Shown here one piece after another: positions 148 to 10,608 of a DNA stretch of 20,459 nucleotides. The notes beneath the pieces are model-generated. The model was not told the origin of the DNA. It saw nothing but the letters and a program-made list of their open reading frames with translations, and ran no database searches. This stretch comes from a virus. Made by a program: the position numbers and the translations under genes. The stretch's first letter is position 1. Every line of letters begins with the position of its first letter. Where the stretch lies: positions 1-20,459 of IMG/VR virus record IMGVR_UViG_3300042563_001771. The stretch is one strand, 5' to 3'.

Positions 148-1992
148 ATGAAAGACACCAAACTAGCAGACGAACTAGAATCTAGACTGAGGAAAGTATT
201 CCTTCCAGATGAAGGCGGCGACATTGTTGAATGGCTCGAAAAGAACATACGACAAATCCCATTCTCCCCGATGCCTGCTGGGTTCAGAGCAAAGGAAACA
301 CCTTGGCTAATAGAACCTCTGCGTGCGTGTGCTGACCCAGAAAAAAGACTAGTTCAGATTCTAGCACCAATTCAGTCTGGTAAGTCCTTAGCGGCAGAGA
401 TGCTTTCGTGCTATATTATTGCCCGTCAGCCAGCCCCCACGCTTTTCCTTAACGACACTAACGACAACGCCGCAGACTGGATGAAAACACGACTTCGTGT
501 TCTTTGGGAGAACTGCCCACCAGTAATGGCTAAACTTCCAAAAGGTGAAGAGAAGTCCAAGGGGGATACAGTTCAGACAAATGACATGACATTCTGGTGT
601 CTTGGTGCGTTCAACGAAAAGAACCTTCAAAGACGTTCGATTAGATGGCTACTTGCTGACGAAACTTGGCTCTACCCAAAGGGACACTTGGCGGAAGCCT
701 CCGCCCGTGTCACTTCGTTCGGCTGGCTTGGCAAACGCATCTTTATGTCACAAGGCGGGTTTGCTGGAGACGAGACTGAGGAGTTCTGGGCAACCACAGA
801 TAAGCGAGTATGGTCATTCGCCTGCCCGCTATGTAATCACAGGCAAGAGTGGAAATGGACACAGATAAGAACACCAGAGGACTGCATGATATATGAGGGT
901 GAGTACGACTTTAATAAAATAAGAAACAATACAACTTATGAGTGCGAAGGTTGTAATCACAGATTTAAGGACAGCAGAGCATCCCGTGACGAGATGAACG
1001 AAAGAGGGTTCTATGCTATGACAAACCCAAATGCGGCTGATTATAACGCTGGATACACTTGGAACTGTCTTGCCGCTCGCTCGTGGGGAACTGCCGCAGA
1101 GTCTTATATGCGTGCGAAGACAATGCTTGATTATAACGGTGACGCAGGCCCAATTCGAATTTTTAAACAAAAGCAATTGGCAGAGTTCTGGACAGATGAG
1201 CCAGATTCCTTTGATGCGGTTCAGTCTATTGGCGAATACAAGCAGGGCGAGGAGTGGGAAGATGAGTCTCTAATAAACCCAAAGACCAAGAAAATACATA
1301 ACGATAAGACGCTAAAAGAACAGGTGAGTTCTAGATTTATGACTGTTGACGTTCAGCGAAACGGCTTCTACTGTCTGGTTAGAAGTTGGTCTGACGGAGG
1401 CGATAGCCGTCTCCGTGCTTGGAGATTCGTATCAACTTGGCACGATGTTCTTTCTTTCCAGAAGTTGCATAGTGTTAACAGTGCCCTTGTTTACGTTGAC
1501 TGCGGTGACCAATTTGATGACGTAATAAGACAGTGCGGAATAAATAAATGGACTGCATTGAGAGGGGACGCAAGAGGCGAGTTTCCTTGGAGAATACAGA
1601 TGGCTGGAGGCTATAAGACAGTGAACAAAACATACGCACCAGCAAGGCTTGTAAATGCTGGAACTGGTGTTGTAAGAGTTCACCACTTCTCAAACTTGGC
1701 ACTAAAGGACCAACTTGCAAGATTGAGGAAGAATGGCAAGCATATGTGTCCGCACGACTGCGGACAGGACTATATGGACCAGATGGAATCTGAGGCTAGA
1801 GTCATGGGCAACAACGGAAAGCCAGAGTGGCGAAGAATTGGCAAGAGAGCCAATCACTTGTGGGACTGTGAAGTTATGCAACTTGTTGCTTCGGCGGCGT
1901 TTGGATTCCTTGGAGCCCCAAGAATCGTTGAGCAAATCAAAGAAGATGAAGTCGAAAGCGACAACAAAGAGGTAGCCAAGGACGAAATCTAG
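148..1992 (+). CDS. terL: Terminase large subunit, GpA family
   Basis: Packaging motor ATPase and endonuclease that pumps phage DNA into the prohead through the portal. The 614-aa length is typical of lambda gpA-like (Terminase_GpA) proteins. Visible in order: a Walker A-type loop APIQSGKS at residues 73-80, a Walker B strand ending LLADE with D171-E172, and a zinc-finger-like set of two CxxC pairs (C226/C229 and C266/C269). The RNase H-like nuclease has acidic residues D401 (MTVDVQ), D451 (VYVDCGD) and D573 (HLWDCE). The tail after residue 595 is acidic and probably disordered. The ATG at 148 is the only sensible start. Its expected partner TerS is not upstream in this window but lies inverted at 19296-20090. 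Confidence 0.95.
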   Translation: MKDTKLADELESRLRKVFLPDEGGDIVEWLEKNIRQIPFSPMPAGFRAKETPWLIEPLRACADPEKRLVQILAPIQSGKSLAAEMLSCYIIARQPAPTLFLNDTNDNAADWMKTRLRVLWENCPPVMAKLPKGEEKSKGDTVQTNDMTFWCLGAFNEKNLQRRSIRWLLADETWLYPKGHLAEASARVTSFGWLGKRIFMSQGGFAGDETEEFWATTDKRVWSFACPLCNHRQEWKWTQIRTPEDCMIYEGEYDFNKIRNNTTYECEGCNHRFKDSRASRDEMNERGFYAMTNPNAADYNAGYTWNCLAARSWGTAAESYMRAKTMLDYNGDAGPIRIFKQKQLAEFWTDEPDSFDAVQSIGEYKQGEEWEDESLINPKTKKIHNDKTLKEQVSSRFMTVDVQRNGFYCLVRSWSDGGDSRLRAWRFVSTWHDVLSFQKLHSVNSALVYVDCGDQFDDVIRQCGINKWTALRGDARGEFPWRIQMAGGYKTVNKTYAPARLVNAGTGVVRVHHFSNLALKDQLARLRKNGKHMCPHDCGQDYMDQMESEARVMGNNGKPEWRRIGKRANHLWDCEVMQLVASAAFGFLGAPRIVEQIKEDEVESDNKEVAKDEI

Positions 1993-2084
1993 AAATAAGT
2001 ACGCTTGCATATTCCAAATATTTAAACATGATTAACTCATCGGTTAGTATGTATATCTATATATACATTATATATTGTTCTTTT

Positions 2085-2345
2085 CAATTTTGGCGGTGAA
2101 CTGGTAAGCATATACAGCAATGATATGCAAGGTTGCATAGTCTTACGACTATGCTGATTGCTCTAACCCCAAGAGTATTCAGATATTTCCTCGATTGATT
2201 CCGTTCACCGCCAATTCACTTTGTGTGGCTGATGATGATACGGAACGGCGAAAGCACCGTTAACCTCCGCTGGTGGGTCATACCATCTTAACAGCACACA
2301 TCCCTTTAAAACATAAGGCAGGCCAACAGCCTGCCTTATTTGTTA
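2085..2345 (+). ncRNA. Candidate structured non-coding RNA downstream of TerL
   Basis: There is no credible ORF here, but there is strong base pairing. A 12-bp closing helix joins 2090-2101 to 2203-2214. It encloses three perfect or near-perfect hairpins: 2108-2113/2123-2128, 2135-2142/2147-2154 with a 4-base loop, and 2160-2164/2172-2176 with one G-U pair. A second part follows, with a hairpin at 2244-2248/2257-2261 carrying a C-GAAA-G cap. A further helix lies at about 2263-2280, and the terminator at 2313-2339 ends the unit. A TATATT at 2071-2076 could be a -10 box, with no convincing -35. The RNA could instead be the processed 3' end of the TerL transcript. I do not recognise the family. 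Confidence 0.6.
2313..2344. terminator. Bidirectional intrinsic terminator
   Basis: A perfect 11-bp stem (2313-2323 with 2329-2339) has a 5-base loop. On the + strand it runs into TTTGTT, and on the minus strand into GTTTT. It sits between the + strand RNA unit and the convergent minus-strand gene at 2362-2529, so it can serve both. Confidence 0.8.
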
Positions 2346-2361
2346 TATATATGATTATAAC

Positions 2362-2529
2362 TCACTTCTTATACACCATAAGAAGTAAGCATACATTGGC
2401 AAAGGAATAAGCAAGCCACATCCCTGCGGCGGGCCAATTGCGAAGGTAAATATTTCCGCACCCTGCGACAAAGTAAGCGAGTGTAGCCACCGCTGGAACA
2501 ACAATTGTGGTAAAGGTTACAATGCTCAT
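2362..2529 (-). CDS. Small two-helix membrane protein, antisense to the module
   Basis: Reading the minus strand from ATG at 2529 to TGA at 2362 gives a 55-aa protein starting MSIVTFTTIVVPAVATLAYF and ending LLLMVYKK. Residues about 3-23 and 36-53 are hydrophobic and look like two membrane helices. They are joined by a short polar stretch (GNIYLRNWPAAG), with a lysine-rich end inside the cell. The ORF fills the space between the bidirectional terminator and the promoter region before 2685, and it is the only minus-strand gene inside the module. The first helix is followed by GC and a Trp-rich turn, unlike random translation. It could be a superinfection-exclusion or membrane-accessory protein, but the function is unknown. 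No Shine-Dalgarno is visible upstream. Confidence 0.6.
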   Translation of the reverse strand: MSIVTFTTIVVPAVATLAYFVAGCGNIYLRNWPAAGMWLAYSFANVCLLLMVYKK

Positions 2530-2684
2530 TTGAGTATAGAAGGTTGGGGAATCGTATAAATCACAGACGGGAGGATGTGGCTATCCATTACTGGATTAAT
2601 GCCAACGTATGCTCTTGACATTCAACAAATGTATGCTATTGCTTGACGTAGTCAAGCACAATCAAGTAGACATTACAAAAATAC
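2530..2684. promoter_or_regulatory. Divergent promoter region with inverted-repeat operator candidate
   Basis: This 155-bp region separates the minus-strand small gene from the head operon. On the + strand, TTGACG (2643-2648) lies 18 bases before TAGACA (2667-2672), 12 bases from the ATG at 2685. A second TTGACA lies at 2615-2620. A perfect 8-bp inverted repeat with a 3-base centre (2640-2647/2651-2658) overlaps the first -35 and could be an operator. TATGCT is followed by TTGAC twice (about 2608-2619 and 2632-2647). No coding sequence was found in 2530-2684. Confidence 0.45.
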
Positions 2685-3536
2685 ATGGGACGCTCTTACG
2701 AAATCAAGGAAGGCCGAAAGGTCATTATTCCAACCAAGAAACAGGTTGAGTCTATGGAGCGTAAGCAAGCGGCTGAGAATACGTTAATTGATGCCCTTGG
2801 CAGGACTGGAATGGTAAACACTGTTTCGGACATTAAAATGATTGAGGCTTATATAAAAACGCTTGGACTCTCTCAGAAGCAACAAAAGGAAATACTGGAA
2901 AACGCAAGAGCAACAGATGAGTTTATTCAGTTAAATGTACTAAGAATCCTTAAAGCACTCCGAGACGGAGATACAAAAAACGAAATGGAGGATAAGAAGT
3001 TTAAGTTCTCACTTGATAATTTGATAAAAAAGTGGGCTAACTCGGAAGTCGAGTTGATGGCCTCTTATGATAAAAATGGCAAATTCCTTGGCTATGACAC
3101 GCAAGCAAAGAGCGGTATAGTTTACATGACAACTGGTGCTGGTCAGTTAGTTGGAGGAACCACAATCCACACACATCCAGTCTTAAAAGGAGAATTTTTT
3201 GGAGGAAACTTTTCAATTGGAGACTGGCAGGGATTTAGAGACACGGGGGAAAGAAGAATGGTTGTAACCTCCAAAGAAGGAACTTACATTTTGGAGAAAT
3301 CTAAGCCTTTAAAGTTAACTAACTCTGACATTACTAAGTCTTATGTTAGAACACTGGTTAGAATAAACCTTTCTCAAAAGGGCATCAAAGACGACAAAAC
3401 AACGAAGTTTGGATGCTCAAAGTCAGAACTTGCACTATGGAGAGACAAGCATCACGGAGCAAAAGAAATTGCGGCGATAGCGGGTGTAAAATTCACCTTT
3501 ATACCCAATAAGGGCTTTGAGGGACTTGACAAATAA
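2685..3536 (+). CDS. JAB/MPN-like putative metalloprotease-fold protein
   Basis: 283 aa. The N-terminal third (1-110) is helical, charged and not recognised. Residues 120-182 resemble the JAB/MPN fold found in some phage head and minor capsid proteins. They show a possible active-site glutamate in EVELMASYDKNG (E121 or E123), then the signature IHTHP with H162 and H164, followed by FSIGDW with S177 and D180. The spacing Glu, HxHP, S-x-x-D is the family's metal-binding pattern. The C-terminal 90 residues are lysine-rich and end TFIPNKGFEGLDK. It leads the head gene cluster, upstream of the joiner and portal, so a capsid or DNA-entry role is plausible. Toxin-like or deubiquitinase-like activity cannot be excluded. 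The fold assignment is motif-based. Confidence 0.6.
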   Translation: MGRSYEIKEGRKVIIPTKKQVESMERKQAAENTLIDALGRTGMVNTVSDIKMIEAYIKTLGLSQKQQKEILENARATDEFIQLNVLRILKALRDGDTKNEMEDKKFKFSLDNLIKKWANSEVELMASYDKNGKFLGYDTQAKSGIVYMTTGAGQLVGGTTIHTHPVLKGEFFGGNFSIGDWQGFRDTGERRMVVTSKEGTYILEKSKPLKLTNSDITKSYVRTLVRINLSQKGIKDDKTTKFGCSKSELALWRDKHHGAKEIAAIAGVKFTFIPNKGFEGLDK

Positions 3537-9717: not shown

Positions 9718-10608
9718 ATGGCCAATACTCTCGGAGGTGTAAACCTCACAATCATCGCACAGGACTCGCTCACAACGCTTCTTGCTGAATTCCCGCTCAT
9801 CTCCAAGTTCTCAACGAACTTTGGTGGTGATATCGCTTCTCGTGGAGAAGCAGTCACAACTCGTCTTGCCAATTCCGTCTCTGTTACCGATATCGGTGCT
9901 AACGGTTATGCCAAGTCTGACGTGACTTCCGTTGCCAAGACCGTCACTCTATCTAACCATAAGGGCTTCGTAATGGGCTTCTCGGATGGTGAAGTTGCTA
10001 AGGGTGGTTACGACCTCCTTCGCAGAACCTTCATCCGTCCTGCCGCTCACGCTGTTTCGAAGGCCGTCCTTGACGACATGTTCGCCCTCGTCACTGCTGG
10101 TAATTACTCTTCAACTGGTTATAACAGCACAGTTGCCGCCTTTGATGCGGATTCCGTTGCATCAATCTCTCAAACACTTACCGACCTTGACGTTCCTCAA
10201 GCGGGTCGTTTGCTGATTGTTAAGCCATCGCTTTACACGTCCCTCGCTAAGGATGATGCCATCCAAGCACAGTATGCTTCTGGTACTAACGCTCCTCTGA
10301 CTGAGAACCTTCTGCCTCGTATCCACGGGTTTGAAGTTAACCAGTACTCTGCGTTCCCTGCCACAATCACGAACCTTAAGGGTATCGCCGTGTCACCCGA
10401 AGCCTTCCTTATCGCAACCCGTCAGCCTGCTCTCCCGACCAACTGGTATGGTGATGTAGCCGCCGCCACAGATGAAAAGAGCGGTCTTACCGTTCAAGTC
10501 CGTGAGTGGTATGATGGCACGACTGGTGAGCAAAAACTCTCAATGTCGATTCTCTACGGCATTGCGATTGGTAACCCGAACTGCCTCACCAAGATTATCG
10601 CTTCGTAA
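9718..10608 (+). CDS. Major capsid protein, HK97 fold
   Basis: 296-aa coat protein forming the icosahedral shell. Its order (MANTLGGVN start, EFPLISKFSTNF, TTRLANSVSVTDIG, then a LSNHKGFVMGFSDGE strand) fits P22-like or other small HK97-fold coat proteins. So do the FIRPAAHAVSKAVLDDMF spine helix and the LTVQVREWYDGTTGEQKLSM to LYGIAIGNP C-terminal strands. No cleaved N-terminal delta domain is obvious, consistent with a separate scaffold. Codon choice differs from the neighbours: arginine is almost always CGT and many codons end in C, a sign of selection for high expression. It is transcribed from its own promoter and bounded by terminators on both sides. Confidence 0.88.
   Translation: MANTLGGVNLTIIAQDSLTTLLAEFPLISKFSTNFGGDIASRGEAVTTRLANSVSVTDIGANGYAKSDVTSVAKTVTLSNHKGFVMGFSDGEVAKGGYDLLRRTFIRPAAHAVSKAVLDDMFALVTAGNYSSTGYNSTVAAFDADSVASISQTLTDLDVPQAGRLLIVKPSLYTSLAKDDAIQAQYASGTNAPLTENLLPRIHGFEVNQYSAFPATITNLKGIAVSPEAFLIATRQPALPTNWYGDVAAATDEKSGLTVQVREWYDGTTGEQKLSMSILYGIAIGNPNCLTKIIAS

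Follow-up and report, generated by a model that had tools for sequence, protein, structure and literature searches.

What is encoded between the packaging and head genes of this virus? In the 20.5-kb virus sequence analysed here (20,459 nucleotides, referred to as the window), the folded region 2085-2345 is located between the end of terL (1992) and the start of the first head-region gene (2685). A first-pass annotation, made from the sequence alone, had described this region as a strongly folded RNA candidate lacking an ORF. Both points are borne out. The minimum free energy (MFE) of the region is -92.8 kcal/mol compared with a mean of -62.2 for shuffled sequences (z -6.63, with 0/200 shuffles as low), and no ORF of at least 60 aa lies within 2085-2345. 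A coding reading was rejected on account of this lack of an ORF, together with indels that are not in threes. The features of the locus are collected in the table.

Relatives were gathered by a TerL search of IMG/VR, which resulted in 38 loci; the records are IMG/VR contigs and are cited by their L numbers. Approximately ten related viral contigs carry the RNA at the same position, directly 3' of terL. These include all close relatives (L002-L007 and L017) and the divergent relatives L009, L010/L036, and L011. The RNA of L059 was located via a pattern built on the most conserved strand, and L008 contains the second half of the RNA only. Alignment of the close homologues indicates that conservation is high across the RNA and ends at the terminator. 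DNA resembling the RNA was not found in isolated phages or plasmids, and the only match of a pattern search in bacterial contigs, an SAR86 stretch from a single conserved locus, lacks the RNA.

Table. Features of the terL-to-head interval in the window and of rtcB in related contigs
Feature	Position	Strand	Basis or remark
Terminase large subunit (terL), GpA family	148..1992	+	upstream neighbour; Pfam PF05876, PF20454
Predicted sigma-70-type promoter, TTGCAT-N16-CATGAT	2005..2032	+	TSS estimated near 2039
Leader motif TGTTCTTT (TGYTCTTT), just before D1	2076..2083	+	7/7 close homologues checked
Domain 1 (D1)	2088..2214	+	covariation, 0/500 shuffles; covariance model R1; folded alone, z -7.5
D1 closing helix P1	2091-2098/2206-2213; bulge 2099; 2100-2104/2201-2205	+	conserved across homologues
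D1 hairpin P2, GNRA loop	2108-2128	+	
D1 AGG/CCU contact	2130-2132/2189-2191	+	
D1 hairpin P3	2135-2154	+	
D1 hairpin P4	2155-2181	+	
Near-invariant, mostly single-stranded UAUUUCCUCGAUUGA between P4 and P1	2184..2198	+	alignments, pattern searches
D1-D2 linker, AATTCACTTT-like	2215..2222	+	similar CACTTT/CCCTTT linkers part modules in sister arrays
Domain 2 (D2)	2219..2303	+	covariation; reciprocal matches of covariance models R2/R3 between clades
D2 stem P5	2223-2227+2229-2231 / 2292-2299	+	
D2 GAAA-capped hairpin	2240-2260	+	
D2 hairpin with CCU/GGG core	2263-2278	+	
Intrinsic terminator, 11 bp stem, U-rich tail	2313..2339	+	conserved in close homologues
Start stump of deleted rtcB, with likely head-operon promoter	2608..2645	- (rtcB)	stump also given as window 2526-2621 (-)
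First head-region gene (MGRSYE protein)	2685..3536	+	downstream neighbour; directly after D2 in L008, L009, L010, L059
rtcB in relatives	L002 2560-3783; L006 5400-6620; L005 6953-8173; L004 3360-4580; also L017	-	

The conserved unit starts at the promoter and comprises two separable domains, D1 and D2. D1 contains a perfect 12-bp inverted repeat (2090-2101/2203-2214) with three hairpins inside, exactly as the first-pass annotation had drawn it. The 12 unbroken base pairs of P1 in the window are a local variant of a bulged helix, which across homologues consists of 8-9 bp, a one-base bulge, and a further 5 bp. When ten D1 sequences were analysed with RNAalifold, the closing helix and the first hairpin were recovered, with 13/24 pairs double-changed. 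In P1 and P2 together, 98.8% of cells are paired, and 33 double-changed cells compare with 8.8 expected, a value reached by 0/500 shuffles. The signal disappears in a control in which the partner strand of P1/P2 is slid. In the homologues, the closing helix was not broken but compensated, with 97.7% of its cells paired. P2 combines its GNRA tetraloop with a bulged A, and P3 has covariation support in 7/7 pairs. P4 varies in sequence and length, yet it can be drawn by eye in every member. The region is almost certainly a conserved structured RNA. A DNA-level element, such as a cos/pac or recombination site with palindromes that merely look RNA-like, would suit the intergenic position beside terL. 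It is highly improbable, since the compensatory changes fall in helices that are bulged, GNRA-capped, and multibranched, and since promoter and terminator are strand-specific.

The invariant single strand of D1 is probably a binding surface. As for an antisense target, the window contains no complement to UAUUUCCUCGAUUGA beyond chance (3 mismatches). A 7-nt loop, AACCCCA, is located on P4 in the window and in L002, and on P3 in L003, L005, and L006, with nearby variants in L004 and L017; these D1 loops of P3 and P4 correspond to window 2135-2181. The AACCCCA loop could pair with UGGG(G) of D2.

Searches with R1, the covariance model of D1, gave matches with E-values of 1e-27 to 1e-36 in 10 loci, all of which are the model's own members. 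D1 is limited to the clade of the window, and no match was found in the sister arrays described below. This distribution bears on the packaging RNAs with which the first-pass annotation had invited comparison. A pRNA-like RNA working with the terminase is suggested by the position after terL and by nothing else, and phi29 pRNA is likewise a structured RNA of a tailed phage near packaging genes. However, TerL is a lambda-type GpA terminase and thus of another family, the Rfam model of the phi29 pRNA family is unmatched, D1 is absent from sister phages with 67-70% identical TerL, and D2 travels with tRNAs in relatives. The comparison was dropped, as a packaging role has hardly any probability left.

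The second section of the RNA, for which a GAAA-capped hairpin and a strong terminator had been proposed, was found as well, and D2 carries the conserved GGGUCAUA. The folding energy of D2 alone is weak in the window (z about -1.4); D2 is supported by covariation, with 9/17 pairs double-changed. R2, the D2 covariance model of the window's clade, also extends to sister phages (TerL identity 67-70%), where its matches are weak but full-length, lie on the same strand, and fall between terL and the head genes. R3, the model built from these sister-clade D2 sequences, shows covariation of its own and matches strongly in L018, L026, L079, and L080. In the reverse direction, it finds window-clade D2 at the correct place in L004 (E 1e-5), L005 (3e-5), L059 (0.002), and L002 (0.003), and more weakly in L006 (0.04), the window (0.17), and L003 (0.23). 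Because of these reciprocal matches, D2 is regarded as common to both clades. D2 is the common core, and D1 is an addition in the clade of the window.

Together, promoter and terminator predict a transcript of approximately 300 nt starting near 2039. The promoter pattern TTGNNT-N16-YATGAT has 8 exact matches in 206 kb (both strands, ten loci), all of them upstream of the RNA, and near-matches with equal spacing are present in L009 and L059. The leader motif recurs close to where two sister arrays begin (L018 and L022) and is a possible processing site.

The put and EAR antitermination RNAs share this arrangement, in which a folded RNA lies between promoter and terminator ahead of a long operon. 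A cis-acting leader of the late or head operon would control read-through of the terminator in the manner of these RNAs, or translation of the first head gene. The succession of promoter, promoter-proximal folded RNA, terminator, and long morphogenesis operon resembles an attenuated or antiterminated layout, and D2 directly precedes the first head gene in L008, L009, L010, L059, and L026. In the first four of these, no terminator is evident between the two, which fits a leader equally well and counts against a free-standing gene. On the other hand, in L002, L004, L005, L006, and L017, the RNA is strongly conserved although its terminator is separated from the head genes by 1.5-4.4 kb of genes on the reverse strand, rtcB among them. 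Furthermore, the head gene is preceded by a separate promoter-like site, which reads TTGACA-N16-TATAAY in L002 and L017 and is degenerate in the window, where TTGACA lies near 2616 with a spacer of 16 (as read from the sequences). In L012, L015, and L016, D2 is located among tRNAs and not before the head gene. A leader function is a possibility to be kept in mind, although an unlikely one.

Action in trans is argued chiefly from the persistence of the intact RNA despite the opposing genes before the head genes. Conservation that ends at the terminator, a promoter unique to the site, and the second promoter-like site before the head gene also count in favour of a free-standing gene. It counts against such a gene of tRNA-cluster type that the window is devoid of tRNAs, that its D2 match to R3 is weak (see above), and that RtcB is convergent, outside the operon of the RNA, and absent from many relatives.

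The tRNA link, which is absent from the first-pass annotation, comes from the sister phages. Their terL-to-head intervals are 2-5 kb long, contain tRNAs but no convincing ORFs, and are composed of common blocks of approximately 70-180 nt in differing orders and combinations. Such arrays are present in L012 (7797-12543), L013, L015, L016, L018 (7954-10260), L020, L022-L026, L028, and L037. Several blocks fold into cloverleaf-like or tRNA-like shapes with expanded middles (L018 8362-8441, 8629-8806, and 8812-8950), and the inserts of the tRNA-like RNAs expand the anticodon side. At the gathering threshold of Rfam, only tRNA was matched in the arrays. Compared with known phages, matches were confined to the tRNAs, except for two trivial cases, an exact 27-base word and a single 75% stretch. 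The fixed-window MFE z of the arrays is only mildly low (mean -0.8 vs -0.1 for terL, p 1e-4), and their RNA nature therefore rests on the shuffled common blocks, the tRNAs, and the covariation of D2. In L018, 9748-10250 is likely to be a second RNA transcription unit, approximately 500 nt long; it has its own TTGACA site as well as a strong terminator, and D2 (9997-10116) lies in its 3' part.

In the sister arrays, D2 comes late or last among the modules. In three loci it lies within a few bases of tRNA genes, in the order tRNA-Thr, D2, tRNA-Met in L012, tRNA-Glu, D2 in L016, and D2, tRNA-Trp in L015. This tight packing suggests that D2 is released by tRNA-type processing.

The opposing genes of the five close relatives include an intact RtcB RNA ligase (PF01139, E 1e-79). 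In the window, only the intergenic region and the first rtcB codons are retained, as recognised by blastn of 2608-2700 to the intergenic region between rtcB and the head gene in L017 and L002. Also in the variable insert are a gene resembling nucleotide kinases and one for a FecR-domain protein (L006 2925-4342, L005 5272-6249, both on the minus strand). RtcB is present elsewhere in two sister contigs and missing in many relatives; where it adjoins the RNA, it is convergent and outside the operon of the RNA.

These genes bear on a further explanation, in which the RNA is a decoy or protectant against host defences targeting tRNA or other RNA. It would mimic or shield a target of the tRNA pathway, and RtcB would mend the cut RNAs. 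RtcB next to the RNA in the five close relatives and its presence in two sister contigs are in line with this, as are the tRNAs and tRNA-like modules at the corresponding place of the sister clade. Neither D1 nor D2 is recognised as a tRNA, however, and RtcB is convergent, situated in a variable insert, and deleted in the window. The decoy function is a doubtful proposition. Bacterial Y RNAs (YrlA) in RtcB repair operons are similar in that a structured RNA with ends joined in a closing helix lies near rtcB, as in the five close relatives (the window has the stump), but Rfam gives no match, and RtcB is convergent here rather than co-operonic. A Y RNA was rejected, as a Ro60/TROVE gene was found in 0/22 related records, most of which are fragments.

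The expectation that the fold matches no named family was upheld: Rfam returned nothing at the gathering threshold over the whole window, and sub-threshold chance matches only over 2000-2700 at a relaxed E-value. ARAGORN and the Rfam tRNA model were negative for a tRNA or tmRNA; the window contains no tRNA gene. Hammerhead and other described self-cleaving RNAs were also rejected, as no Rfam ribozyme was matched and the CUGANGA core is not invariant; the CUGAUGA of D2 reads CCGAAGA or CCGAUGA in L010 and L059. Large ornate RNAs had been a second comparison; of these, GOLLD, ROOL, and OLE also have elaborate folds and occur in phages or mobile DNA, and some have been reported alongside tRNAs (PMC12286853). 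That comparison is only loosely apt. Their Rfam models are unmatched and their known folds were not seen, and at approximately 300 nt the RNA is much smaller.

The closest parallel is provided by the T4 RNAs C and D (rnaC/species 1 and rnaD/species 2), stable non-coding RNAs of 139 and 119 nt. They are annotated at the 3' end of the tRNA cluster, separated from a tRNA by a few bases, and D2 is placed likewise in L012, L015, and L016; the window itself differs in containing no tRNA. To our knowledge, the annotated T4 stable RNAs by the tRNA cluster have no clear function. Searches with R1 and R2, filters off, gave a best E-value of 0.2-0.3 in the T4 region. Because no homology was found, the comparison is restricted to "works like" and does not extend to "is a": the T4 RNAs may be functional analogues. 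T4 rnaC (L143, NC_000866 70908-71046) resembles the sister-array modules in its expanded middle and its T-arm-like GGGUUCGAAUCCC hairpin; no T-arm-like hairpin was recognised in D1 or D2. The rnaC sequence also contains UCGAGGAAAUA, an 11-nt exact complement of the invariant UAUUUCCUCGA of D1, which is probably a coincidence.

Taken together, the region carries an RNA of an undescribed family. Probably, though by no means certainly, this is a stable phage RNA of tRNA-cluster type, approximately 300 nt long, with a free-standing gene and a function in trans. It would be transcribed from its own promoter, end at its own terminator, and consist of two modules that evolve independently. D2 would be an old stable-RNA module, set among tRNA genes and structured blocks in the sister phages, which is probably released by tRNA-like processing and then works in trans, either as the folded RNA itself or within an RNP. 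D1 would be a clade-specific module, characterised by its bulged closing helix, GNRA-capped hairpin, and invariant single strand. The likeliest role, put forward with low confidence and by analogy with T4 RNAs C and D, would be in the tRNA/translation or RNA-repair programme of the phage. In a bolder extension, which we consider improbable, D2 would be the core of a new phage system, a mosaic, module-shuffling array of structured and expanded-arm tRNA-like RNAs between terL and the head genes that, with RtcB, sustains translation against RNA-cleaving host defence; the window would then represent a reduced two-module form.

The shuffled 2-5 kb arrays of the sister phages suggest that, in some phages, RNA genes make up a much greater share of the genome than gene prediction reveals. 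A covarying family across an uncultivated phage group, with its own promoter and with links to tRNAs and an RNA ligase in relatives, offers a comparative handle on the function of such RNAs.
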